Position numbers and translations under genes: made by a program. Under the pieces are notes generated by a model that saw only the letters and a list, made by a program, of their open reading frames with translations, had not been told where the DNA came from and searched no databases. 35,061 nt of DNA from Oscillospiraceae bacterium (GTDB lineage: Bacteria > Bacillota > Clostridia > Oscillospirales > Oscillospiraceae): assembly GCA_017437095.1 (NCBI GenBank), contig JAFSBW010000028.1, forward strand, positions 1 through 35,061. Direction: 5' to 3'. Shown here piece by piece: positions 2,264 to 34,677 of this stretch (within the stretch, counting starts at the first letter, position 1; each line of letters opens with the position of its first letter).

Positions 2264-2340
2264 GGTGGGTATAGTTCAATTGGCAGAGCACTGGATTGTG
2301 GTTCCAGGCGTTGTGGGTTCGAGTCCCATTACCCACCCCA
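2264..2340 (+). tRNA. tRNA-His(GTG)
   Basis: Complete cloverleaf. The acceptor GTGGGTA pairs with TACCCAC, and the extra G at 2264 faces the C discriminator, as is specific to tRNA-His. The anticodon loop is TTGTGGT with anticodon GTG, the T arm is GTGGGTTCGAGTCCCAT, and CCA is encoded at 2338-2340. Confidence 0.97.
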
Positions 2341-2342
2341 TG

Positions 2343-2375
2343 AAAAAACTCCGATGCATTCGCATCGGAGTTTTT
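2343..2375 (+). terminator. Terminator after tRNA-His
   Basis: A-tract, stem ACTCCGATGC / GCATCGGAGT (2348-2357, 2362-2371), loop ATTC, then T tract. It can act in both directions. Confidence 0.9.
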
Positions 2376-2380
2376 CCACT

Positions 2381-2550
2381 AAATTTGCCCTTGCGGGCAA
2401 GTGAAATTCCGCTAAAGCGGAGTGAAATTGCTCCGCAGTGAAATATTTGCTTCGCAAATATGGGCAAATTTAATTTTACTTTCTGCTTCAGCAGAAAATT
2501 TCACTTCGGCGAAGGCGAAATTTCACCGTGAGCAAAGCGACCGATTTCAC
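2381..2550. repeat. Branched hairpin array A (GTGAAAT / ATTTCAC)
   Basis: Small unrelated hairpins (TTGCCC-GGGCAA, TCCGCT-AGCGGA, ATTTGC-GCAAAT, TTTCTGCT-AGCAGAA) are joined by a constant spacer. The spacer is GTGAAAT at 2401, 2422 and 2438 in the left half. It is the reverse complement ATTTCAC at 2498, 2520 and 2544 in the right half. The halves can pair into a stem with side hairpins. The array begins directly after the tRNA-His terminator. It accounts for most of the gap between tRNA-His and the next gene. Confidence 0.85.
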
Positions 2551-2649
2551 TAAAATTCGCAGCCGTTTAGCGGATGCGGCGCAACCGCAAACCGCATTGC
2601 ATTATGTCCAGCAGCATACAAAATCCCGAGGAAAGGAGCGCAAGCTGCA

Positions 2650-3141
2650 ATGGAAGAACTGGAACAGATCCTGAAAGCGCAGGCCGCGCGCTACCGAAAA
2701 ATGCAGCCCGGCGATGCCGTAAAGCTGATCTATCAAAATGAATTTGGCGGAGGGCATTTGATCCGAAGCGAGCAAGCCTTCCTGGCGTATCTGCGGGCAG
2801 AATATGCCGCCACCGAGAAAGATCCCGCTGCGCCGCTGTACGAAAATATCGGCAACGGCATCTGCCGTGTGAATCTTGCGGCGGTAAAGCCGGAAGAATT
2901 GGATGCCCTCGGGCAAGCGTTTATCCGCTGCGCCGCCGAACACAAAGGCACCCTTGCAGGCTTTCTTAACAAGCTTGCCCTGCTGAAACGCCTAAGCGCC
3001 GAAGGCTTATTTGCTTTTGACAGCCAAGCGCTGGGCGACTATCTTGCCGACTACCAGAAGGCAGGCTACCCGGCGGTTTCTCACAGCGCCGAATATCGGC
3101 AGGCCTATAAGCCCGCCTATCGCATCGTAAAAAAGGGGTAA
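2650..3141 (+). CDS. Conserved-looking protein of unknown function (GGGHLI motif)
   Basis: A 163-residue soluble protein with no signal peptide or membrane segment. The most striking segment is near residues 21-38, DAVKLIYQNEFGGGHLIRS, with a glycine run and histidine that look like a conserved site. The C-terminus has alternating tyrosines (EYRQAYKPAYRIVKK) and is basic. I think similar proteins exist in other Clostridia but I cannot name a function. The ATG at 2650 has AAAGGAG about 11 nt upstream. Codon use fits the neighbouring core genes. It is monocistronic, between a hairpin array and the trmL promoter. Confidence 0.75.
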   Translation: MEELEQILKAQAARYRKMQPGDAVKLIYQNEFGGGHLIRSEQAFLAYLRAEYAATEKDPAAPLYENIGNGICRVNLAAVKPEELDALGQAFIRCAAEHKGTLAGFLNKLALLKRLSAEGLFAFDSQALGDYLADYQKAGYPAVSHSAEYRQAYKPAYRIVKKG

Positions 3142-3282
3142 GCTACGCGAAGCCGGCCCTGCTTTCTGCAATTTTCGCCCCGCACCCACAGGCCGCTGGC
3201 AACAGCCTGGCATTTGGCCGCTTTTTGTTGGAAATACTACCTAATCTTCTATAAAAAACTTGTAAATAGTAGCTTTTTTGCA

Positions 3283-3311
3283 TTGATTTTATGCCCAAAA
3301 TGTCTTATAAT
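3283..3311 (+). promoter_or_regulatory. Promoter of trmL-pgk-tpiA
   Basis: -35 TTGATT (3283-3288), 17-nt spacer, -10 TATAAT (3306-3311), in an AT-rich stretch about 33 nt before the trmL start. Confidence 0.75.
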
Positions 3312-3343
3312 ATACCGGCACTTTGAAATAGGCGGTGGATCTC

Positions 3344-3856
3344 ATGCTGAATATCGTACTGGTTGAGCCGGAGATTCCGCAAAACTGCGGCAACATTGCC
3401 CGCACCTGCGCCGCTACCGGCTCCCGGCTGCATCTGATCAAGCCCCTGGGGTTTGATATTTCTGAAAAAGCTGTTCGCCGGGCAGGGCTGGACTACTGGC
3501 ACATGGTAGATGTTCAGGTTTATGAAAACCTGGAGGATTTCTTCGGGCGCAATGAAGTAAAGCAAATGTGGCTGCTGTCCACCAAAGCGCCCCGGCGGTA
3601 TACCGAGGCTTCCTTTGAAGACGGCTGCTATCTGCTCTTCGGCAAGGAGACTAAGGGCCTGCCGGAGGATTTTCTGGAAGCGCACCGGGAGGCCTGCGTG
3701 CGCATCCCCATGCGCAGCGATGCCCGGAGCCTGAACCTGAGCAACGCAGTTGCCATTACCGCCTTTGAAGCGCTGCGGCAGCTGGATTTTCCCCAGCTGC
3801 TGGAAGTTGGAAAAATGGGGGCTGCTGCCCCACAAATAATGGAGGAATCATTATGA
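3344..3856 (+). CDS. trmL: tRNA (cytidine(34)-2'-O)-methyltransferase
   Basis: TrmL is a SPOUT-class (SpoU family) enzyme that methylates the ribose of the wobble base in tRNA-Leu, using S-adenosylmethionine. The three family motifs are present: NCGNIARTC near the start (N and R of motif 1), [10 protein letters not shown] (motif 2) and LNLSNAVAI (motif 3, trefoil-knot cofactor loop). At 170 residues it has the usual family length. I chose ATG at 3344 ([13 protein letters not shown]) because homologues begin this way. An in-frame GTG at 3335 lies in the ribosome-site region. The stop overlaps the pgk start (ATGA), so it is coupled to glycolysis genes, although its function is in tRNA modification. 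Confidence 0.93.
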
Positions 3857-5049
3857 ACTACAACAAGAAGTCTATTGAAGACATTGAAGTAGCCGGCAAG
3901 CGCGTTTTGTGCCGCTGCGACTTCAACGTTCCCACCAAGGACGGCAAGATCACTTCCGATAAGCGTATCGTAGCTGCCCTGCCCACCATCAAGTACCTCA
4001 TCGACAAGGGCGCAAAGGTCATTCTGTGTTCCCATATGGGCAAGGTCAAGGTAGAATGGGATCCCAAGCTGAGCCTGAAGGTGGTTGCCGCCCGTCTGAG
4101 CGAGCTGCTGGGCCAGGAAGTTATTATGGCTGCCGATGTTGCCGGCGAGGATGCCAAGGCTAAGGCTGCTGCCCTCCAGAACGGCCAGGTCATGCTGCTG
4201 GAGAACACCCGCTACATGAAGGGCGAGACCAAGAACGATCCCGAGCTGAGCAAGGCTCTGGCTGATATGGCTGACATCTTTGTAAACGATGCCTTCGGCA
4301 CTGCTCACCGCGCCCACGCTTCCACCGCCGGCGTTGCCGACTATCTGCCCGCCGTTTCCGGCTACCTGGTGCAGAAGGAAGTTTCCATCATGGGCAAGGC
4401 TCTGGCCAACCCCGAGCGTCCCTTCGTTGCCATTCTGGGCGGCGCTAAGGTCGCTGACAAGCTGAATGTTATCAACAACCTTTTGGAGAAGGTAGACACC
4501 CTGATCATCGGCGGCGGCATGGCCTACACCTTCGCGGCTGCCCAGGGCTACAATGTAGGCAAGAGCCTGCTGGACGAGAGCAAGATCGACTACTGCAAGG
4601 ACATGATGGCAAAGGCTGAGGCCAAGGGCGTAAAGCTGCTGCTGCCTGTTGACTGCGTAGTTGGCAGCTTCCCCTCCCCCATCGACGGCCCTGTGGATGT
4701 TAAGACCGTTTCCATCGATGCCATCCCCAGCGACCTGGAGGGCTTGGACATCGGCGAAAAGACCCGCGTGATCTTCGCTGAGGCTGTGCGCAACGCCAAG
4801 ACCGTTGTTTGGAACGGCCCCATGGGTGTATTTGAGAACCCCACTCTGGCTGCCGGCACCGTCGCCATGGCTCAGGCCCTGGCCGACAGCGAGGCTGTTA
4901 CCATTGTTGGCGGCGGCGACAGCGCTGCAGCCTGCGAGCAGCTGGGCTTTGCTGACAAGATCACCCACATTTCCACCGGCGGCGGCGCTTCCCTGGAGTT
5001 CCTGGAAGGTCTTGAATTGCCCGGCATCGCTTGCCTGGAAGACAAGTAA
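3853..5049 (+). CDS. pgk: Phosphoglycerate kinase
   Basis: Cytosolic glycolytic enzyme transferring phosphate from 1,3-bisphosphoglycerate to ADP. The 398-residue length is standard. Recognisable sites are [16 protein letters not shown] (substrate loop with the family's conserved Asp and Asn), [39 protein letters not shown] (nucleotide side), GPMGVFE and the C-terminal VGGGDSAAA / STGGGASLE nucleotide and hinge motifs. The ribosome site GGAGGAATCATT precedes the ATG, which overlaps the trmL stop. Codon use is strongly biased to highly used codons, as expected for an abundant enzyme. It is followed by tpiA in the same direction. Confidence 0.99.
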
Positions 5050-5082
5050 ATTAAGTTAAAACACCTCTGTTATCGCAACTAC

Positions 5083-5109
5083 GGCTGGGGGAAACACCAT
5101 CCCCCAGCC
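5083..5109 (+). promoter_or_regulatory. GC-rich hairpin between pgk and tpiA
   Basis: Perfect 9-bp stem GGCTGGGGG (5083-5091) / CCCCCAGCC (5101-5109) with a 9-nt loop and no T tract directly after. It may stabilise or process the pgk-tpiA transcript and is not a typical terminator. A second small hairpin CTCTC/GAGAG lies at 5126-5139. Confidence 0.55.
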
Positions 5110-5164
5110 CCTTACATTGAATTTTTTCTCTCTTTTGAGAGTGTCTATATTTAAGGAGTAAACC

Positions 5165-5941
5165 ATGAACAGAAAATACCGCAAGACCCTTATCGCAGGC
5201 AACTGGAAAATGAACAAGACCGCCACCGAGACTAAGGAATTCATGACCAAGCTGAAGGCCATTATGCCCAAAGGCCGCTGGTGTGACATTGCCCTTTGTG
5301 TGCCTGCCGTTTCTATCGGCACCGCAGTGCGTGCCGTGCGGGAAACCCGCATCGGCATCGGCGCCCAGAACTGCAACGCCAACCCCTCCGGCGCCTATAC
5401 CGGCGAGATCTCTACCGATATGCTGGTAGATGCCGGCTGCAAGTATGTGATCCTGGGCCACAGCGAGCGCCGCGCCATGGGCGAAACTGACGGCGAGATC
5501 AACGCCAAGGTACACGCCGCTCTCAATGCCGGCCTGATCCCCATCGTTTGCGTAGGCGAAAGCCTGGAGCACCGGGAAAACGGCATTACCGAGGAGTGGG
5601 TATCCATGCAGGTAAAGCTTGCTCTGAAGGATGTTGACGCAGAGAAGATCCGCAAGGTGGTCATCGCCTACGAGCCCATCTGGGCCATCGGCACCGGCCG
5701 CACCGCTACCCCTGAGCAGGCTGAGGCGGTTTGTGAGCATATCCGCGCTGTGGTGCGCAAGCTCTACACCTCTAAGCACGCCCGGGCTATGACCATCCTC
5801 TACGGCGGCTCTATGAACGAGAAGAACGCCTACGAGCTGCTGGCTCAGCCGGATATCGACGGCGGCCTCATCGGCGGCGCCAGCCTGGTGGCTGAAAAGT
5901 TCGTGCAGATCATCGAAGCTTCCAACCAGCCCATCGCGTAA
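5165..5941 (+). CDS. tpiA: Triosephosphate isomerase
   Basis: Interconverts dihydroxyacetone phosphate and glyceraldehyde 3-phosphate in the cytosol. The protein is 258 residues. The catalytic lysine is in GNWKMNK, the electrophilic histidine in GHSERR, the general-base glutamate in [11 protein letters not shown] (with the mobile loop after it), and the phosphate-binding glycines in LYGGSM and GGLIGGASL. The start ATG has TAAGGAG about 8 nt upstream. It follows pgk by 115 nt, with no clear promoter of its own, so it is probably co-transcribed. A strong terminator follows at once. Confidence 0.98.
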
Positions 5942-5944
5942 TAA

Positions 5945-5976
5945 AAAACGGAGCAGCTTAGCTGCTCCATTTTTTA
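5945..5976 (+). terminator. Terminator after tpiA
   Basis: Stem GGAGCAGCT / AGCTGCTCC (5950-5958, 5960-5968), flanked by an A tract on the left and six T residues on the right. It is likely bidirectional. Confidence 0.9.
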
Positions 5977-5978
5977 TA

Positions 5979-6230
5979 ATTGACAATTGACAGTTGACAA
6001 TTGACAATTGAAAATGGATAATGGTTAAGGATAATGGATCGTTGCGCTGATTATGAGTGCGTTGGGGCGATCATTGATCGCCCGCAAAGCCGCCAGGCTG
6101 CAAGATTGAAGAGTGAAGAGTGAAGAGTTAAGATGCCGAAATCTTCACTCTTAACTCTCAAATCTTCACTCTCCACACCCGTCCGCTTGCGCCGCACCCA
6201 GCCAATTTATAATTTGTAATTTGTAATTGA
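5979..6230. repeat. Nested AATTGAC, GAAGAGT and AATTTGTAATT repeats
   Basis: This gene-free stretch consists of tandem AATTGAC copies (5979-6010), a GGGCGATCATTGATCGCCC palindrome (6064-6082), and GAAGAGTGAAGAGT repeats whose inverted form (CTTCACTCTTAACTC) follows at 6143. It ends with AATTTATAATTTGTAATTTG (6205 onward), next to the ribosome site of the following gene. Similar AATTGAC and AATTTGTAATT runs recur at 25639 and 27594. Confidence 0.75.
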
Positions 6231-6245
6231 AAGGAGGAGATCAGC

Positions 6246-7280
6246 ATGGATACTCTGTATTTATCCGCAGACAATAAGGCTACTGCCTCTATCGCCGCGG
6301 ATATCCTGAAAAAAGGCGGCTTGGTAGCTCTGCCTACGGAAACCGTATACGGCCTGGGCGCCAACGGCCTGGATGAAAACGCCGTTGCCAAAATCTTTAT
6401 TGCCAAGGGCCGGCCCCAGGACAATCCTCTGATCCTCCATGTGGCTGACCCGGCACAAATGGAAGACATTTGCCATGACATTCCCCAGGCAGCCTGGCGC
6501 CTGGCGCAAGCCTTTTGGCCCGGGCCGCTTACCATGGTGCTGCCCGCTAAGGACATTGTACCCAAGGGCACTACCGCCGGGCTTTCTACCGTAGCGGTGC
6601 GCTGCCCGGATAGCGACCTGACCCGCAGCATCATCCGCCTTTCCGGCGTGCCCATCGCAGCCCCCTCTGCCAACCTTTCCGGCACCCCCTCTACCACCAC
6701 CGCGGCGCATGTGCTGCACGATCACAACGGCAAGATCGATGCCATTGTAGACGGCGGAGCTTGCCGGGTGGGCGTAGAAAGCACCATTGTAGACCTTACG
6801 GAGCAGCCCCCCCGCCTGCTGCGCCCCGGCGGCATTACCCCGGAGCAGCTGGTGGAAATTCTGGGAGAGCTAACTGTAGATAAGGCGGTCACCGCCCAGA
6901 TCGATAAGGACGAGGTGGTAAAAGCCCCGGGCATGAAATACCGCCATTACGCGCCAAAAGCCCCGGTCGTTATCGTTTCCGGCAGCCGGGAAGCGGCGGC
7001 AGGCTATATTAACCGCCACTATGAAAAGGGCCAGCGGGTACTGTGCTTCCAGGAGGAGCTGGAGCTGTACCGGGGCTGTGACCCCCTGAGCTACGGCTCG
7101 GAAGCAGACCCTGCCAGCCTTTCTGCCGGGCTTTTCGATGCCCTGCGGCAGCTGGACAGCAGCGCCGTTACCAAGGTATATGCCCGCTGCCCGGTGGGAG
7201 GCGGCATTGCCTACGCTGTGCAAAACCGGCTGAAAAAGGCGGCAGCCTTCCAGATCATCGACGCGGAGGTGGAAGCATGA
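6246..7280 (+). CDS. L-threonylcarbamoyladenylate synthase (Sua5/YwlC)
   Basis: Makes L-threonylcarbamoyladenylate from threonine, bicarbonate and ATP, the first step of t6A formation at tRNA position 37. The 344-residue length matches the two-domain Sua5 form. An N-terminal YrdC domain (about 1-205) carries LPTETVYGLGAN, KGRPQDNPL, SAPSANLSG-type (AAPSANLSGTPS) and VESTIVDL motifs. The linker has APGMKYRHYAPKAP, and the C-terminal Sua5 domain follows. The ATG at 6246 has an excellent AAAGGAGG site directly after an AATTTGTAATT repeat. The stop overlaps the next start (ATGA at 7277-7280), so it is coupled to coaE. Confidence 0.95.
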   Translation: MDTLYLSADNKATASIAADILKKGGLVALPTETVYGLGANGLDENAVAKIFIAKGRPQDNPLILHVADPAQMEDICHDIPQAAWRLAQAFWPGPLTMVLPAKDIVPKGTTAGLSTVAVRCPDSDLTRSIIRLSGVPIAAPSANLSGTPSTTTAAHVLHDHNGKIDAIVDGGACRVGVESTIVDLTEQPPRLLRPGGITPEQLVEILGELTVDKAVTAQIDKDEVVKAPGMKYRHYAPKAPVVIVSGSREAAAGYINRHYEKGQRVLCFQEELELYRGCDPLSYGSEADPASLSAGLFDALRQLDSSAVTKVYARCPVGGGIAYAVQNRLKKAAAFQIIDAEVEA

Positions 7281-9244
7281 TCATAGGGATCACCGGCGGC
7301 ACCGGCTGCGGCAAAACCACCGCTTTGCGGGCCATTCAGGCGCTGGGCGGCCGGGTTTTGGACTGCGATGCCATCTACCACCGCCTTTTGCAGGAGGACA
7401 AAGCCCTGGTTGCGGCCATTGAAAGCCGCTTCTCCGGGGTAACGGAGCAGGGCGTGCTTAACCGCAAAAAGCTGGGCGCCATCGTGTTTGAAGATGCCCA
7501 GGCCCTGCTGGATCTCAACGGCATTACCCACGCGGCGGTAAAAGCCGAGGTGCTGCGCCTTTTGCAGGACAAGCCCCGGCTTGCTGCCATTGATGCCATA
7601 GGCCTTTTTGAAGGCAGCCTGGCCCAGCTTTGCGATTTTACCGTAAACATCGCCGCTCCATACCAGGCCCGGCTAAAGCGCCTTATGGCCCGGGACGGCA
7701 TCTTGGAAAGCTACGCCCGCAGCCGCATGGATGCCCAGCGCAGCCAGGAGAGCTTCCGCTGGCTTTGCGACCATACTTTAGAAAACAATGCCACCCAGGA
7801 AGAGTTTTACGCCAAGTGCCTTAGCTTCTTCCGGGAAAAATACGAAGGAGGAAACCCCATGACCAACGAAGAATTGAAAGAAAAGCTGCTTGCCGCCCCC
7901 AAGAACGGCTTTGCCGGCCTGACTGAGGAGCAGCGCGCCGAAATGGAAAGCTACTGCCGGGGCTACATGGCCTTTATGGACGCATGCAAGACCGAGCGGG
8001 AAGCTACTGCCTGGACAGAAAAAGCTGCCATTGAGCATGGCTTTGTAGCCCTGCAGCCCGGCATGGAAGTTAAGCCCGGCGACAAGGTGTATATGAACAA
8101 CCGGGGCAAGAGCATTATTCTTGCCGTGATCGGTCAGGAGAGCCTGGCCAGCGGCGCTAACATCTGCGCCGCCCATGTGGATTCCCCCCGCATGGATCTG
8201 AAGCCCAACCCTCTGTACGAGGAAAGCGAGATCGCCTATTTTAAGACCCATTACTACGGCGGCATTAAGAAGTACCAGTGGGTAACCGTTCCCCTGGCCC
8301 TCCACGGCGTTGTGTACCGCAAGGACGGCACTGTGGTTACCGTTACCGTGGGTGAGGATGCAAACGACCCCATTTTGATGGTATCTGACCTGCTGATCCA
8401 CCTTTCTGGCGAGCAGCTGCAGAAAACCGCCGCCAAGGCCATTGAAGGCGAGCAGCTGAATGTGATCCTGGGCACCGAGCCTCTGGCCGGCGAAGGGAGC
8501 GAGCTGGTAAAGCTGAACATTATGAAGCTGCTCAACGAAAAGTACGGCATTATCGAAGAGGATTTCCTCAGCGCGGAGCTGACCATCGTGCCCGCAGGCC
8601 CCAGCCGCGAGGTGGGCCTGGACAGAAGCCTCATCGGCGCTTACGGCCATGACGACCGGGTATGCGCCTACGCCGAGATCCTGCCCCTGCTGGATATGGA
8701 AACTCCCAAGCACACCGCCGTGTGCATCCTGGCGGACAAGGAAGAGATCGGCTCCGTGGGCATCAGCGGTATGCAGAGCCATGCCTTTGAGTATTTTATG
8801 GGCATTCTGTGCGACAGCCAGGGTGTAAAGCTGGAGCATTGCTTTGCGTCTTCCTTCTGCCTCAGCGCGGACGTATCCAACGCTCTCGACCCCAACTTCC
8901 CCGGCACCTGCGATGCCCGCAACAACTCAAAGCTCAACTACGGCGTAGCCATCTGCAAGTACACCGGCTCCCGGGGCAAGGGCGGCGCCAGCGATGCTTC
9001 CGCCGAGGCTATGGGCCATGTGCGCACCACCCTGGACAACGCCGGCGTAAAATGGCAGATCGCTACCCTGGGCAAGGTAGACCAGGGCGGCGGCGGTACG
9101 GTAGCTGCCTACATGGCAAACCGGAACATCGTTACCGTAGATGCCGGCGTGCCGGTGCTGTGCATGCACGCTCCCATGGAGCTGGTAAGCAAGCTGGACT
9201 GCTACATGACCATGCTGGCCTGCAAGGCCATTTATCTGGCGTGA
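7277..9244 (+). CDS. coaE: Dephospho-CoA kinase, open in frame with an M18 aminopeptidase
   Basis: Residues 1-194 are a dephospho-CoA kinase, the last step of coenzyme A synthesis. It has the P-loop GGTGCGKT (7-14), DCDAIYH, and a lid/substrate segment RLMARDGI. No stop codon follows. The frame continues through GGNP into a complete 461-residue M18 aminopeptidase starting at 7859, giving 655 residues. The expected CoaE length (about 200) is reached exactly at the junction, where a full ribosome site is present. The sequence therefore allows both a fusion and a separately started peptidase. A lost stop codon or a sequencing error cannot be excluded. I know of no functional link between the two activities. 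Confidence 0.85.
   Translation: MIIGITGGTGCGKTTALRAIQALGGRVLDCDAIYHRLLQEDKALVAAIESRFSGVTEQGVLNRKKLGAIVFEDAQALLDLNGITHAAVKAEVLRLLQDKPRLAAIDAIGLFEGSLAQLCDFTVNIAAPYQARLKRLMARDGILESYARSRMDAQRSQESFRWLCDHTLENNATQEEFYAKCLSFFREKYEGGNPMTNEELKEKLLAAPKNGFAGLTEEQRAEMESYCRGYMAFMDACKTEREATAWTEKAAIEHGFVALQPGMEVKPGDKVYMNNRGKSIILAVIGQESLASGANICAAHVDSPRMDLKPNPLYEESEIAYFKTHYYGGIKKYQWVTVPLALHGVVYRKDGTVVTVTVGEDANDPILMVSDLLIHLSGEQLQKTAAKAIEGEQLNVILGTEPLAGEGSELVKLNIMKLLNEKYGIIEEDFLSAELTIVPAGPSREVGLDRSLIGAYGHDDRVCAYAEILPLLDMETPKHTAVCILADKEEIGSVGISGMQSHAFEYFMGILCDSQGVKLEHCFASSFCLSADVSNALDPNFPGTCDARNNSKLNYGVAICKYTGSRGKGGASDASAEAMGHVRTTLDNAGVKWQIATLGKVDQGGGGTVAAYMANRNIVTVDAGVPVLCMHAPMELVSKLDCYMTMLACKAIYLA
7859..9244 (+). 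CDS. M18 family aminopeptidase (internal start in the coaE frame)
   Basis: A zinc metallo-aminopeptidase of family M18, acting in the cytosol on N-termini of peptides. From its own ATG it is 461 residues, the usual family size. Expected metal ligands are visible: H106 in AAHVDSPRMD, D265 in GHDDRV, the E295-E296 pair in DKEEIGS, D338 in SADVS, and a C-terminal histidine in CMHAPME. AAGGAGGAAACCCC precedes the ATG at 7859 with ideal spacing. This argues that the peptidase is at least partly translated from here even though the upstream coaE frame reads through. A hairpin array and terminator follow. Confidence 0.85.
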   Translation: MTNEELKEKLLAAPKNGFAGLTEEQRAEMESYCRGYMAFMDACKTEREATAWTEKAAIEHGFVALQPGMEVKPGDKVYMNNRGKSIILAVIGQESLASGANICAAHVDSPRMDLKPNPLYEESEIAYFKTHYYGGIKKYQWVTVPLALHGVVYRKDGTVVTVTVGEDANDPILMVSDLLIHLSGEQLQKTAAKAIEGEQLNVILGTEPLAGEGSELVKLNIMKLLNEKYGIIEEDFLSAELTIVPAGPSREVGLDRSLIGAYGHDDRVCAYAEILPLLDMETPKHTAVCILADKEEIGSVGISGMQSHAFEYFMGILCDSQGVKLEHCFASSFCLSADVSNALDPNFPGTCDARNNSKLNYGVAICKYTGSRGKGGASDASAEAMGHVRTTLDNAGVKWQIATLGKVDQGGGGTVAAYMANRNIVTVDAGVPVLCMHAPMELVSKLDCYMTMLACKAIYLA

Positions 9245-9251
9245 TAAAACT

Positions 9252-9411
9252 AAGTTTGCCCTTTGGGCAAGTGAAGTTTACTTTGTAAGTGAAGTGATCC
9301 TGAGGATCGTGAAGTTTTGCCTGCGGCAAAGTGGGCAAACTTAACTTCACTTGTGCATCGGCACAAACTTCACTGCGCAGCAGCTTCACTTTTGCTTTGC
9401 AAAAACTTCAC
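9252..9411. repeat. Branched hairpin array B (GTGAAGT / ACTTCAC)
   Basis: Left spacers GTGAAGT at 9271, 9289 and 9309 alternate with hairpins TTGCCC-GGGCAA, TTAC-GTAA, GATCC-GGATC and TTTGCC-GGCAAA. Right spacers ACTTCAC at 9344, 9367 and 9405 (GCTTCAC at 9383) alternate with TTGTGC-GCACAA, TGC-GCA and TTTTGC-GCAAAA. AGTTTGCCC at the left edge also pairs with GGGCAAACT in the middle. Compared with array A the spacer has changed at one position, and the change appears in both halves. It ends directly at a terminator. Confidence 0.85.
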
Positions 9412-9460
9412 AAAAAAGAGAGAACATCCGGGCAAATTGCCCTTTTGTTCTCTCTTTTTA
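9412..9460. terminator. Bidirectional terminator between the aminopeptidase and the minus-strand membrane gene
   Basis: Long stem AAAAGAGAGAACA / TGTTCTCTCTTTT with an inner GGGCAAATTGCCC, A tract on one side and T tract on the other. The placement between converging genes fits bidirectional use. Confidence 0.85.
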
Positions 9461-17862: not shown

Positions 17863-17976
17863 ATTCCCCGTCGGCAGACGGTTTGCCCGAGTAGGCATCG
17901 CCCTGCGTGCCGTTTCGAAAGGCAATGGATATTCGGTGCAGGGCGGTATTTGCCCCAAAACATTAGGCGAAGCCGA

Positions 17977-18038
17977 CATCATTCGCGTCAGCGGCATCAT
18001 TAGTGAAACGGCATCATTTGCCGAAGGCAAACATCATT
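17977..18038. repeat. Hairpin array D (CATCATT spacers, right half only)
   Basis: CATCATT at 17977, 17995, 18012 and 18032 alternates with tiny hairpins (CGC-GCG, TGCC-GGCA). This is the same spacer as the right half of array F. No left half (AATGATG) is found. The last spacer runs straight into a terminator. Confidence 0.75.
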
Positions 18039-18079
18039 GAAAAAACGCACCTTTGTCGCTAGACAAAAGTGCGTTTTTT
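18039..18079. terminator. Terminator next to array D
   Basis: AAAAAACGCAC / GTGCGTTTTTT with inner TTTGTC/GACAAA. It is directly followed by a degraded tRNA-Leu 3' end, as a tRNA terminator would be on the minus strand. Confidence 0.8.
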
Positions 18080-19019: not shown

Positions 19020-19376
19020 TTATTGCTTGGGATCGCTATTTCCCTTTGCTGTATTGATAGAAGCGATCAATATGCGGCGAACTGTGCCGCATTGGTTGTA
19101 AAGATCAATTACAGTTTCTCTGTTCAAAATCTCGGATTTTACGAGCAACTCCAACCAATACTCCGTTTCGTAGCACTCCTTCAGAGCAATCTGTAGCTTT
19201 GCAATAAAATCAGGTCTTCCGTGGGCATAATTTGCTTCACGAATATTAGCGCCAATCGAAGTAGCAGAGCGCTCCAACTGATTCACAAGGGAATAATGCC
19301 CCTTGACATTTTCACAAAGTTTGATAATCTTAACCGCAAAATCAGTTGAAAGTTCTCGAAGTTTGGATTCTGCCAT
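19020..19376 (-). CDS. Four-helix-bundle protein (23S rRNA intervening-sequence type)
   Basis: A 118-residue, all-helical protein matching the four-helix-bundle family first seen in 23S rRNA intervening sequences. The family signature is present: LVNQLERSATSIGANIREAN (helix 2 with the conserved SIGANI) and DFIAKLQIALKECYETEYWL (helix 3). ATG at 19376 has GAGGTG about 8 nt upstream; the longer open frame has no better site. These proteins often travel in mobile or accessory loci, and nothing is firmly known of their job. The gene is AT-rich and sits beside tRNA-Leu-end copies, which fits an acquired gene. It is not inside an rRNA gene here. Confidence 0.9.
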   Translation of the reverse strand: MAESKLRELSTDFAVKIIKLCENVKGHYSLVNQLERSATSIGANIREANYAHGRPDFIAKLQIALKECYETEYWLELLVKSEILNRETVIDLYNQCGTVRRILIASINTAKGNSDPKQ

Positions 19377-19428: not shown

Positions 19429-19598
19429 GTGAAATATCCTCCGGATATGAAATAATGCCCTTCCGGTCATTGTGAAATTTGATGCTCTGGCATCAAGTGA
19501 AATGAAATAAATCCCCTCACGCCCACAGGCATTTCACTTGCCGAAGGCAAATTTCACACGCAAAGAGTATTTCACAAATCCCGCAAGGGATTTATTTC
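19429..19598. repeat. Branched hairpin array E (GTGAAAT / ATTTCAC)
   Basis: Left spacers GTGAAAT at 19429, 19472 and 19497 (ATGAAAT at 19447). Right spacers ATTTCAC at 19531, 19551 and 19569. The innermost left segment GAAATAAATCCC (19504-19515) is the exact reverse complement of GGGATTTATTTC (19587-19598) at the right edge. Hairpins include TTGATGC-GCATCAA, TTGCC-GGCAA and AAATCCC-GGGATTT. It shares several modules with array G. Confidence 0.85.
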
Positions 19599-19602
19599 GT
19601 TG

Positions 19603-19639
19603 AAAAAGGCACTAATTGTATCACAATTAGTGCCTTTTT
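19603..19639. terminator. Terminator next to array E
   Basis: Perfect stem AAAAAGGCACTAATTGT / ACAATTAGTGCCTTTTT with loop ATC, directly before a copy of the tRNA-Leu 3' end. It has the form of a minus-strand tRNA terminator but serves no intact tRNA. Confidence 0.85.
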
Positions 19640-19640
19640 C

Positions 19641-19777
19641 TGGTGCCGGTGACCGGGATCGATTTGCATTTTTGCCCTTGGGGGCAAAAATTAAGGTGTT
19701 GCCGCCATCGAGCTGGCGGCAAGCAACAGCCCACCGGGCTGTTGCATTTAGATGGGTTCGATCCCGGCACGGCACCA
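19641..19777. repeat. Three-hairpin element closed by tRNA-Leu 3'-end copies
   Basis: The left end TGGTGCCGGTGACCGGGATC and the right end GATCCCGGCACGGCACCA are inverted copies of the tRNA-Leu T arm and acceptor. Between them are three hairpins: TTTTTGCCC-GGGGCAAAAA, TTGCCGCC-GGCGGCAA and GCAACAGCC-GGGCTGTTGC. The whole folds as a cloverleaf-like tree. No gene inside. Confidence 0.8.
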
Positions 19778-24765: not shown

Positions 24766-25653
24766 ATGGCTACTGCCGCGAAAAAGAGAAGAAATAAGCG
24801 GGCCGCCCGCCGCCGCAAGGAGCTGATTGCGGGAGTGGTGGTGCTCAGCGTTATTTTCGTTGCGCTCTTAGCGGTAGCTGTGGTGCTGTTCCGGGGTCAG
24901 GCGCCCCAAACCGTGGCCAAGCCCCCTATGGAACCGCTGCCCCAGCTGCAAAGCCAGGCCAAAAACCCGTACAGCGCTTCTGATTTTATTGCCCAGGATG
25001 GCCGCATGGCTCTGCGCAGCGGCCAGGGCATTGCGGGCATTGATGTTTCCCGCTACCAGGGGGATATCGATTGGCAGAAGGTAGCCGATTCCGGGGTAAA
25101 ATTCGCCTTTATCCGGGTAGGCTACCGCACCTACGGCAGCGGCGAGATCACCGCCGATCCCAACGCCCAGGCCAACTACCGGGGGGCAAAGGCCGCCGGG
25201 CTGAAGGTAGGCGTGTACTTCTTCTCCCAGGCCACTACCGCCCTGGAAGCTATGGAGGAAGCGGATTGGACACTGCGCTCTATCGATGGCTGGCAGCTTG
25301 ACCTGCCCGTAGTCTACGACTGGGAGCTGCCCGCCCCGGACGCCCGCACCAAGGATGTTACCTCCGGCCAGCTTACCGCCTATACCCGCATTTTCAACCG
25401 CATTTTAAAGAACAACGGCTACACCGTTATGCTCTATTTTAACCGGCACCATGCCGGGGTGCGCCTGGATATGCACCGGCTGCTGGACATGCCCCATTGG
25501 TTTGCCATGTATGCCGACGAAATGACCTACCCCTATGATTTTGCCATCTGGCAGTACAGCCAGACCGGCCGGGTGCCGGGCATCGCCGGGGATGTGGATC
25601 TGAACATCATGCTCCCGGGCAATGCGCTGTGGGAGATAACAATTGACAATTGA
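24766..25653 (+). CDS. Membrane-anchored GH25 lysozyme (muramidase)
   Basis: A 295-residue glycoside hydrolase family 25 enzyme expected to cut the MurNAc-GlcNAc bond in peptidoglycan. The N-terminus is very basic (KKRRNKRAARRRKE), followed by a single membrane span (about 20-43) and a Pro/Gln-rich linker. The catalytic domain runs from about 88 to the end: GIDVSRYQGDIDWQKV, FAFIRVGYRTYGSG, VGVYFFSQA, the catalytic VVYDWEL (DxE) and FAIWQYSQTGRVPGIAGDVDLNIM. The missing cleavage site suggests a membrane-held enzyme facing the wall. The last codons (ITIDN and stop) lie in an AATTGAC tandem repeat, so a repeat has reshaped the C-terminus. Confidence 0.93.
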   Translation: MATAAKKRRNKRAARRRKELIAGVVVLSVIFVALLAVAVVLFRGQAPQTVAKPPMEPLPQLQSQAKNPYSASDFIAQDGRMALRSGQGIAGIDVSRYQGDIDWQKVADSGVKFAFIRVGYRTYGSGEITADPNAQANYRGAKAAGLKVGVYFFSQATTALEAMEEADWTLRSIDGWQLDLPVVYDWELPAPDARTKDVTSGQLTAYTRIFNRILKNNGYTVMLYFNRHHAGVRLDMHRLLDMPHWFAMYADEMTYPYDFAIWQYSQTGRVPGIAGDVDLNIMLPGNALWEITIDN

Positions 25654-25680
25654 CAATTGATAATTGGCAGTTGAAAGTTG
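25639..25680. repeat. AATTGAC tandem repeat overlapping the end of the GH25 gene
   Basis: Three to four copies of ACAATTG / AATTGAC followed by decayed copies (GATAATTGGCAGTTGAAAGTTGAA). The same repeat lies after tpiA (5979-6010). Confidence 0.8.
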
Positions 25681-25713
25681 AAAGCCGATGATACAGCCCA
25701 TTTGGGTGCGGTT

Positions 25714-27177: not shown

Positions 27178-27640
27178 GCCAACGGCAATTTCCTTTGCGT
27201 ATTTGAGGCCGCCAATGTAGAGCTGCCACCGAATTGCTGCCGCGCAAGATCCCGCTGCCACGGGCTGTCCAGGAGGCCAGCCCCTACGCGCCCGCAATCG
27301 GTACATTCGTAGGGGGCAGCGCCCTCGACGCCCCGCCCTAGGGCCGCCGAATTGCTGCCCTGCAAACCCCCGCTGCTACGGCGGCAGCAAGCCGCCGCCC
27401 TACGATGCCTTTGGGGCTTGCTGTAGGGCGGGGGCTTGCTCCCGCCGTTGCTGTTGGATATTTGCGCGGTATGTTTACAGCGGACCGCTGCCAGCCGCCG
27501 TTTACCATGCTGCCCGGCCTATTCAGCGGATCGTAGGGGCGATTCACGAATCGCCCGCAATTGGCAACCACGCAAGCGAGTGCGCAGCGCCGCCAATTTA
27601 TAATTTGTAATTGGTAATTTGTAATTTGAAAAATTCCCGG
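27178..27640. repeat. Repeat-filled intergenic region (GTAGGG hairpins, AATTTGTAATT)
   Basis: No gene seen. It contains several GTAGGG-led hairpins (27309, 27422, 27532, for example GGGCGATTCACGAATCGCCC), a duplicated GCCGCCGAATTGCTGCC-like phrase near 27230 and 27345, and a tandem AATTTGTAATTGG run at 27594-27628. The same AATTTATAATTTGTAATT is found at 6205. Confidence 0.75.
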
Positions 27641-34119: not shown

Positions 34120-34294
34120 GTGAAATATTTGCCATACGGTAAATGTGAAATAATTCACCTTGTGAATTGTGAAATTTGATGCTATGCATCAAGTGAAATG
34201 AAATAAATCCCTTATGCGCCTCAGCGCATTTCACATTGCGAAGCAATATTTCACTGCCAAAGGCAATTTCACAAATCCCAAAGGGATTTATTTC
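34120..34294. repeat. Branched hairpin array G (GTGAAAT / ATTTCAC)
   Basis: Left spacers GTGAAAT at 34120, 34145, 34169 and 34193; right spacers ATTTCAC at 34228, 34248 and 34266. GAAATAAATCCC (34200-34211) pairs with GGGATTTATTTC (34283-34294). Hairpins include AATTCAC-GTGAATT, TTGATGC-GCATCAA, ATTGC-GCAAT, TGCC-GGCA and AAATCCC-GGGATTT. Several modules are the same as in array E, 15 kb away. Confidence 0.87.
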
Positions 34295-34297
34295 GTT

Positions 34298-34328
34298 GAA
34301 AAAAGACGGTTACAATAGTAAGCGTCTA
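34298..34328. other. Decayed copy of the tRNA-Asn terminator
   Basis: GAAAAAAGACGGTTACAATA is followed by GTAAGCGTCT, nearly the same as the working terminator at 34568-34600 but with a broken right arm and no T tract. It stands at the end of array G, as the intact one does at the end of array F. A weaker hairpin with T tract lies just beyond, at about 34341-34368. Confidence 0.6.
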
Positions 34329-34419
34329 TGGCTGTCGAGAAACCCTACCCAAAAGGGTGGTAGTTTTTAAGAAAGTAGCGGAACAATAAAGCTTTTTGTG
34401 AAGTATCGGCTGCGCCGAT

Positions 34420-34565
34420 ATGATGCTATGCTAGCGCATAATGATGTTGCTCGCTTTGCTCGCAATGATGCGATGTTTGCCACCAACATTAGGCGCAGCC
34501 GACATCGTTAGCGCAAGCGGCATCATTGGCGTAGCCAACATCATTTGCCAAAGGCAAACATCATT
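34420..34565. repeat. Branched hairpin array F (AATGATG / CATCATT)
   Basis: Left spacers (A)ATGATG at 34420, 34440 and 34464; right spacers CATCATT at 34521, 34539 and 34559. Hairpins are TATCGGC-GCCGATA (just outside), TATGC-GCATA, TTGC-GCAA, GGC-GCC and TGCC-GGCA. It ends directly at the tRNA-Asn terminator. With array G it fills most of the gene-free region from 33947 to 34601. Confidence 0.83.
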
Positions 34566-34567
34566 GA

Positions 34568-34601
34568 AAAAAGACGGTTACTATCGTAACCGTCTTTTTT
34601 C
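34568..34601 (-). terminator. Terminator of the 5S-tRNA-Asn unit
   Basis: AAAAAAGACGGTTAC / GTAACCGTCTTTTTT with loop TATC, directly after the CCA end of tRNA-Asn on the minus strand. Confidence 0.92.
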
Positions 34602-34677
34602 TGGCTCCCCTTGTTGGACTCGAACCAACGACCTGCGGATTAACAGTCCGTCGCTCTACCGACTGAGCTAAAGAGGA
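34602..34677 (-). tRNA. tRNA-Asn(GTT)
   Basis: 76-nt tRNA on the minus strand: acceptor TCCTCTT with AAGGGGA, D arm GCTCAGTCGGTAGAGC, anticodon loop CTGTTAA (GTT), T arm GTTGGTTCGAGTCCAAC, G discriminator and encoded CCA. Confidence 0.96.

Follow-up and report, generated by a model that had tools for sequence, protein, structure and literature searches.

The DNA analysed here is a stretch of 35,061 nt from an Oscillospiraceae genome (contig JAFSBW010000028.1 of assembly GCA_017437095.1; hereafter the window), which contains six separate elements of about 170 nt, A to F. In all but E, which is a left half only, copies of a constant 7-nt word are joined by variable hairpins in the left half and the right half carries the reverse complement of the word, again joined by hairpins. 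We refer to these elements as trees. Element C stands next to a gene of the IVP/S23 family (IVP), and what is new here is that the word of a tree belongs to this partner gene. The first-pass annotation of this DNA, made from the sequence alone, had described one feature extending over 2381-9411; arrays A and B do lie there, but the span holds ordinary genes and the objects themselves are the separate elements listed in Table 1. Element B has no tRNA at its site, sits between converging genes and has its hairpin at the opposite end from the usual outer-arm position.

Table 1. Positions of the trees, their hairpins, the adjoining tRNA genes and the IVP gene in the window
Feature	Position	Strand	Remarks
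tRNA-His gene	2265..2340	+	ARAGORN; proposed landing site of element A
Terminator-like hairpin, element A (GAAAAAA stem-loop TTTTTC)	2342..2376	+	sequence; adjoins tRNA-His
Tree element A, word GTGAAAT / ATTTCAC	2379..2550	+	Gut-1 match at 2376-2449
Tree element B, word GTGAAGT / ACTTCAC	9250..9411	+	flanked by stop codon of gene 7277-9244 and hairpin 9412-9459
Element E, left half only, word AATGATG	17961..18038	-	hairpin 18040-18079 behind tRNA-end remnant (by eye)
IVP gene, partner of GTGAAAT trees	19020..19376	-	PF05635 23S_rRNA_IVP; TIGR02436 four helix bundle protein
Tree element C, word GTGAAAT	19429..19599	-	directly upstream of IVP gene; Gut-1 match at 19526-19602
Terminator-like hairpin, element C	19602..19640	-	behind tRNA 3'-end remnant ~19641-19665 (by eye)
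Tree element D, word GTGAAAT	34120..34295	-	Gut-1 match at 34223-34298
Tree element F, word AATGATG / CATCATT	34398..34565	-	far-side outermost word is a GTGAAGT form
Terminator-like hairpin, element F	34566..34601	-	adjoins tRNA-Asn
tRNA-Asn gene	34602..34677	-	proposed landing site of element F

In array A the left words are GTGAAAT at 2401, 2422 and 2438 with a shortened TAAAT at 2380, and the right words are ATTTCAC at 2498, 2520 and 2544 with one deviant ATTTTAC at 2473. Array B has GTGAAGT at 9271, 9289 and 9309 with a shortened TAAGT at 9251, and ACTTCAC at 9344, 9367 and 9405 with a deviant GCTTCAC at 9383. These positions agree with the shared plan that the first-pass annotation had drawn for A and B, down to a one-base change present in all left and nearly all right copies (one deviant right copy in each array), and its word pair for array F was likewise recovered. 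Its further statements that the hairpin sequences vary while folding is kept, that many loops have three bases and that all words of an array change together are supported by the larger sample described below, and the words agree between halves in other genomes too. A three-word pattern matched 8 times in the window and 0 times in 100 dinucleotide shuffles; a word-free detector found A, B, C, D and F (A, C and F by one half only) and missed E, with 0 matches in 20 Markov copies of the window. Shuffled or Markov sequence, the control that had been suggested, thus gave 0 arrays. Across the whole genome there were 58 GTGAART pairs and 15 AATGATG pairs, versus 0 and 0 for the reversed patterns. 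The hairpin arrays are confirmed as real and beyond chance.

To describe the plan we collected 88 distinct trees from loci of many genomes (gathered by Gut-1, word and IVP searches, hence not a random sample) and used the 77 with a clear orientation, leaving out 11. Four words on each side were found in 34 trees; in 29 the first word is shortened, which leaves three plus four, and 14 are arranged otherwise; freely modular arrays are ruled out by the 63 of 77 with one of the first two layouts. From the outer arm inwards, a tree usually consists of a hairpin with both A- and T-tracts, four words alternating with three hairpins, a centre that includes the reverse complement of the outer arm, and four reverse-complement words with three further hairpins. 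The word families include GTGAAAT, GTGAAGT, ATGAAAT, AATGATG, ATGATAT, CGATAT types, GTTATAT, GCTAAAT, ATGAATT and others.

The first-pass annotation knew of no named element class with this plan, but one half of a tree is Rfam RF01706, Gut-1. At the curated cut-off of 50 bits, elements A, C and D match with 61.9, 74.3 and 73.9 bits, respectively, B, E and F remain below it, and of 14 IVP-linked loci tested in named genomes, most of them from ruminant guts, 13 reach it. The full 77-position model is matched by the left half of GTGAAAT trees. Gut-1 is catalogued as a noncoding RNA of the human gut, and the 2010 survey rates it as certainly RNA, not cis-regulatory and confined to the human gut (PMC2864571), whereas trees are larger and mirrored, come in many word families, are tied to IVP and also occur in samples from goat, sheep, deer, yak and cattle.

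The protein of the window matches PF05635 (E-value 6e-26), TIGR02436 (E-value 4e-29) and the solved relative 2rld (E-value 1e-24). The association of trees with IVP was assessed in two sets. In a diverse set from 60 genomes, IVP matches that shared the same residues 6-60 were collapsed into one (110 domain rows became 98 records, a step that also dropped a real locus with an ATGAAAT tree, L189 of G059) and records with <300 nt upstream were left out (98 to 90); an upstream tree with a score of at least 5 was present at 44 of the 90 genes, compared with a single one of 1800 Markov sequences and a single one of 78 stretches taken downstream. The protein-only set comprised the 80 loci nearest to the window's IVP in named genomes, including two that duplicate the first set; after omission of loci with <250 nt upstream (80 to 78), a tree lay directly upstream of 76 of 78 IVP genes and downstream of 1 of 76. 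The two also co-occur by genome: IVP was found in 29/30 genomes with Gut-1 versus 8/30 others (p 1.5e-8), and outside the genus of the window in 12/13 versus 2/10.

The word follows the protein. When word classes were placed on the IVP protein tree, 17 changes were needed (with "no tree" counted as a state) against a mean of 40.1 after shuffling, and none of 200 shuffles was as low. The protein tree used 85 proteins over 113 columns, after removal of proteins <80 amino acids and of two second-domain rows, and is poorly resolved; classes were assigned by hand, with L155, L167, L193, L219 and L220 (score <5 or short flank) judged by eye and L192 and L227 kept as "none" despite scores of 5 and 6. 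Word clades cross host families, a statement that rests on few genomes (one per family in G049-G059). Two IVPs with identical residues 6-60 and 91% identity overall come from host families f1 and f24.

Some IVP genes that lack trees carry heptamers in another form. The largest tree-less clade (26 genes) has direct repeats in tandem immediately ahead of the start codon, with a best lag of 7 or 14 in 24/26 and a mean lag-7 identity of 0.64, compared with 0.37 in shuffled and 0.36 in downstream sequence; in a smaller clade of nine genes the lag-7 identity is 0.58 versus 0.38. The rRNA intervening sequence of Coxiella has two to three copies of the heptamer GACAGAT ahead of the start codon of S23 (PMC4990558). 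Solitary tandem heptamers of the same kind (TTGACAA-like and TTTGTAA-like) also occur in the window, at 5959-6036, 6201-6228, 25636-25699 and 27592-27633, and are perhaps a second repeat system of this genome.

The hairpins obey strict rules. After 86 of 426 segments that could not be folded by a simple rule were left out, 258 of the remaining 340 hairpins were perfectly Watson-Crick. Among distinct tri- and tetraloop hairpins the closing pair is C-G in 107/110 left and 116/129 right cases, against 25/64 controls taken from the window. On the right, loops with G as first and A as last base make up 36/64 triloops and 53/65 tetraloops (control loops 5/64), and left loops show the complement, T and C, in 65/86 and 17/24, respectively, so that most loops are GNA or GNNA on the right and TNC or TNNC on the left, with triloops making up 150 of 239. 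A pyrimidine occupies the third position in 22 of the 53 GNNA loops, against the GNRA rule of RNA. The d(GNNA) loop is also a motif of DNA. The d(GNA) triloop with a C-G closing pair is a known stable DNA motif (PMC5815330). Because the favourable loops fall in the 3' half of each strand, mirrored between strands, the loop rules favour hairpins of DNA, as evidence rather than proof. The main non-Watson-Crick feature is a hairpin with tandem G-A mismatches (TGAG...CGAA or close) in the right half of 15/77 oriented trees (e.g., L074, L118 and element A of the window), which may be a point of recognition.

The co-variation of the words had been taken as strong evidence that the two halves pair. 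The 77 trees contain 267 nested pairs of a left and a right word; 105 of these pairs deviate and 0 of the 105 are compensated (60 are innermost, where the register overlaps the centre, and the other 45 are clean), and we therefore dropped left-right pairing as an inference from covariation. Folding programs do permit such pairing, with 2646 of 4068 word nucleotides paired to the other half by DNA energies and 2248 by RNA energies; a long stem between the halves is possible, and covariation gives it no support. Words change as a unit from one partner-protein clade to another, which recognition explains without pairing, and the most economical account of their agreement within an element is that something reads them.

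Trees that are linked to IVP lie mainly behind tRNA genes. Where flanking sequence was available, 51/73 were within 130 nt behind a tRNA on the same strand, and 13 tRNA kinds were represented. A mixed set of 75 parsed trees had 36 near a tRNA and 6 with a T-arm remnant; many trees away from a tRNA show a terminator-like hairpin or tRNA remnant by eye. The tree and its IVP gene form a unit with recognisable boundaries. Fifty-three unit pairs are at least 83% identical, and in 17 of the 21 that have a tRNA on both sides the tRNAs differ (units 83-90% identical). A further comparison took the 86 unit pairs that are 80-99% identical: 54 of their left ends map to the interval from -290 to -240, which also contains most tRNA ends, and 70 of their right ends map to the -10 and 0 bins at the IVP stop. 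Homology mostly stops at this codon, where unrelated genes start. In the genome of the window, element A (behind tRNA-His) and its copy on contig 79 (behind tRNA-Leu) are 82% identical over 239 nt, a match that includes the 3' arm of the tRNA and the hairpin and ends with the last word. Among 295 tree pairs, the right end coincides with the end of the last word or lies 5 nt beyond it in 166, and lies 15 to 40 nt earlier in 102. Trees were present at 3 of 17 tRNA-His 3' ends of the genus, including that of the window, one of the three being recognised by eye.

The hairpin between tRNA and tree appears to travel with the element, because an A/T-tract hairpin with the apex TTTGTCTACC adjoins a tree in 15/17 matches (5 flagged by script and 10, in the opposite printed orientation, by eye; the other two, L379 and L386, are not such hairpins). 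A terminator that is part of the tRNA gene was ruled out, as tree-less tRNA-Asn and tRNA-His ends bear other terminators and the TTTGTCTACC apex stays with trees. Elements D and F are in tandem and have similar hairpins (GACGGTTAC...GTAACCGTC) at 34298-34331 and 34566-34601, that of D being degenerate, as if one had been copied from the other.

Array B was looked for behind the orthologous aminopeptidase genes of relatives and seen at none of the 28 informative ones (39 relatives matched and 29 were fetched; one contig ends there and three have <160 nt of flank), and a complete tree was found at the terminator of 0/13 homologous tRNA-Asn 3' ends of relatives, one of which (L233) has a tree fragment about 115 nt on. 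Non-coding flanks have diverged too far for exact empty sites. The DNA of element D had no match in phages or plasmids; two unverified faecal phage contigs encode an IVP with an upstream tree and may be bacterial contamination.

Other sequences near tRNA ends were observed in passing. Upstream of the tRNA-His gene of the window, 1864-2198 holds three near copies at a spacing of 155-156 nt, each ending like a tRNA 3' end (CGAGTCCCTCCTGGCGTGCCA). Behind tRNA-His terminators of L397, L399, L400, L407, L408, L410 and L418, an inverted T-arm-like ACTCGAA recurs by eye, followed in several loci by hairpins such as GTGTCCGGTGGACAC and GGGAGAGTCC, which is another possible tRNA-end element.

Downstream of IVP the genes vary. 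An open reading frame (ORF) of at least 60 amino acids starts between -20 and +60 of the IVP stop at 52 of 89 genes, 26 of them exactly at -4 (ATGA), and these 52 ORFs fall into 47 clusters. Pfam searches with 19 of them gave 12 matches above the cut-off (three acetyltransferases, a cytidine deaminase, an ASCH domain, a pyrophosphatase, an AAA domain, a HAD protein, two WapI-type immunity proteins, DUF4288 and DUF6678), two below it (MazG and DUF6304) and five ORFs without a match. Units stand in tandem at L057, L101 and L321. By eye, the last codons of IVP genes in L292-L371 are often purine-rich before the ATGA overlap and could serve as the ribosome-binding site of the next gene. PADLOC, run on four proteins of the window, returned a single weak match (E-value 0.0099).

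We consider it probable that the arrays are the nucleic-acid part of small mobile cassettes that land behind tRNA genes, with IVP reading the heptamers joined by looped-out hairpins. The computed results behind this reading are the plan of the trees, the congruence of word and protein clade, the tree-IVP unit with its boundaries, the different tRNA ends at which it stands, the variable downstream ORFs and the heptamers of other IVP clades. A full cassette would consist of a tRNA 3' end, a terminator-like hairpin, the tree, the IVP gene and a variable cargo gene that often starts at the IVP stop (ATGA), and solitary trees (A, B, D, E and F) would be copies without IVP, either miniature non-autonomous cassettes or remnants. 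IVP, a small four-helix bundle of which a solved family member is a homopentameric ring (the Xanthomonas S23 protein, described as a homopentameric toroid in PMC4990558), would recognise the 7-nt word and bind several in a row. The hairpins, acting as DNA on exposed strands, would fold and loop out to place the words side by side, an arrangement equivalent to the tandem heptamers of tree-less IVP genes, and such a ring would therefore see tandem repeats and trees alike. Reading by IVP together with looping out would keep the words constant at 7 nt and leave the hairpin sequence free so long as folding holds. We infer a movement reaction in which the complex of IVP and words marks the element for insertion behind a tRNA; the hairpin borne by the element would take over termination and so make the insertion harmless. 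A wider claim, which we hold tentatively and at slightly less than an even chance, is that this represents a new class of gene mobility, in which rings of the IVP/S23 family read a clade-specific heptamer code (tandem or hairpin-joined, on both strands) and thereby mark terminator-bearing cassettes with swappable cargo for insertion exactly behind tRNAs, without a linked recombinase.

Several observations weigh against the cassette reading. Not every tree adjoins a tRNA (B, for example, does not), and 33/75 of the mixed set have neither a tRNA nor a T-arm remnant. By the score used, no upstream tree was found at 46/90 IVP genes of the diverse set; genomes rich in Gut-1, such as G039, G046 and G047 (33, 31 and 27 matches), had no match to IVPs of the GTGAAAT/ATGAAAT clade, and G049 had Gut-1 and no IVP match at all. 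No ORF of 60 amino acids starts near the stop at 37/89 IVP genes, and by eye some downstream ORFs resemble resident genes or chance frames (MutY-like, SfsA-like). Movement itself was not observed: our comparisons, all of them between species, whose non-coding flanks diverge anyway, showed neither strains that differ in the presence of a copy nor a duplicated target. A recombinase travelling with the unit was not seen (no profile search for recombinases was made). Y1 transposases (Y1_Tnp in 17/30 Gut-1 genomes versus 11/30 others) and reverse transcriptases (RVT_1 in 11/30 versus 14/30, and not found in the genome of the window, which is 77% complete) were rejected as moving enzymes, since neither tracks Gut-1. 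Data on binding by IVP were not found in the literature searched. Within the GNA halves, G.T exceeds A.C (38 versus 17, p 0.006), which RNA would also give, and GNRA-like loops suit RNA as well.

These last two points also suit the account under which Gut-1 is catalogued, a family of structured noncoding RNA in which the 77-nt half is transcribed and acts as RNA and the repeats are copies of the gene. The three Rfam matches of the window, the rating given by the survey (PMC2864571) and hairpins that vary yet keep folding all speak for it. We nevertheless regard this account as quite unlikely, given that the Gut-1 model is one half of a two-half element, that the loop rule is mirrored between strands with GNA in each 3' half, pyrimidines breaking GNRA and triloops predominating, that the words follow a protein partner, and that most elements lie behind terminator-like hairpins.

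That IVP is a regulator, with the upstream tree or heptamers as its autoregulatory site and solitary trees as further operators or decoys, is unlikely as a full explanation. The fixed position of the tree upstream of IVP would fit an operator, as would the heptamers that another clade carries immediately ahead of the start codon; solitary trees, however, are often behind tRNA genes or, like B, between converging genes and not generally at promoters, and an operator leaves unexplained why a terminator-like hairpin is carried along, why the unit boundaries are sharp and why near-identical units stand behind different tRNAs. An operator role could hold in addition to the cassette role. It is very improbable that template switching at palindromes produced neutral repeats that were spread by ordinary recombination and to which IVP is linked by hitch-hiking. 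Perfect Watson-Crick pairing in most foldable hairpins and one word common to both halves would be expected of that process, but the congruence of word and clade across host families, the 76/78 linkage to IVP, the strict rules for loops and closing pairs and the landing at tRNA ends all argue against it.

If the cassette reading is correct, the IVP/S23 family, which PMC4990558 describes as having solved structures and no known function, gains its first likely DNA or RNA target in the form of a concrete, clade-specific 7-nt word, and an "RNA" of Rfam is re-read as half of an apparent DNA element. Among gut Clostridia, the cassettes may shuttle small accessory genes (for acetyltransferases, a deaminase and immunity proteins), with tRNA ends as possible docking sites guarded by a portable terminator. 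No linkage of tree and IVP was seen in the titles and abstracts of the matches listed in open-licence PubMed Central, which is no proof of absence.

Among known systems, the cassettes of integrons offer one comparison: each unit combines a structured, poorly conserved site (attC) with one variable small gene and is taken up at an attI platform. The units described here share the structured site and may share the variable small gene, some stand in tandem, and their cargo includes GNAT acetyltransferases, a weak MazG match and immunity proteins. One variable gene per site, which we could judge for IVP-linked trees, would fit the 52 ORFs in 47 clusters but not the 37/89 IVP genes without such an ORF. 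In contrast to integron cassettes, the site lies 5' of the gene, a terminator-like hairpin is included, landing is at a tRNA end rather than attI, an IVP gene is present and an integrase was not observed (integrase models were not searched), and a -10-like sequence was noted by eye inside the tree-IVP unit.

RAYT genes, which encode tyrosine transposases, lie beside their own family of repetitive extragenic palindromic (REP) sequences of 20-40 bp, sorted by GTAG or CGTC tags, with many solitary copies elsewhere. A partner gene adjoining its own repeat family and many solitary copies are common to both systems, whereas the partner here is a four-helix bundle for which no enzymatic role is known, and the distribution of Y1 transposases does not follow that of Gut-1. 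TRAP is a ring protein that binds regularly spaced RNA triplets and acts in attenuation; a ring of subunits with one repeat per subunit is the mode that we propose for IVP, although the proteins are unrelated, the repeats are heptamers and a role in mobility is proposed instead of attenuation.

The same protein family belongs to the intervening sequences of 23S rRNA, inserted elements with inverted repeats and with heptamers before the S23 start, which lie within a helix of 23S rRNA, are cut out by RNase III and are suspected by some to be mobile (PMC4990558). Insertion into rRNA was not searched for as such, and 51/73 IVP-linked trees were found directly behind tRNAs. The tree-IVP units differ from the intervening sequences in standing mainly behind tRNA genes and in carrying both trees and downstream ORFs.

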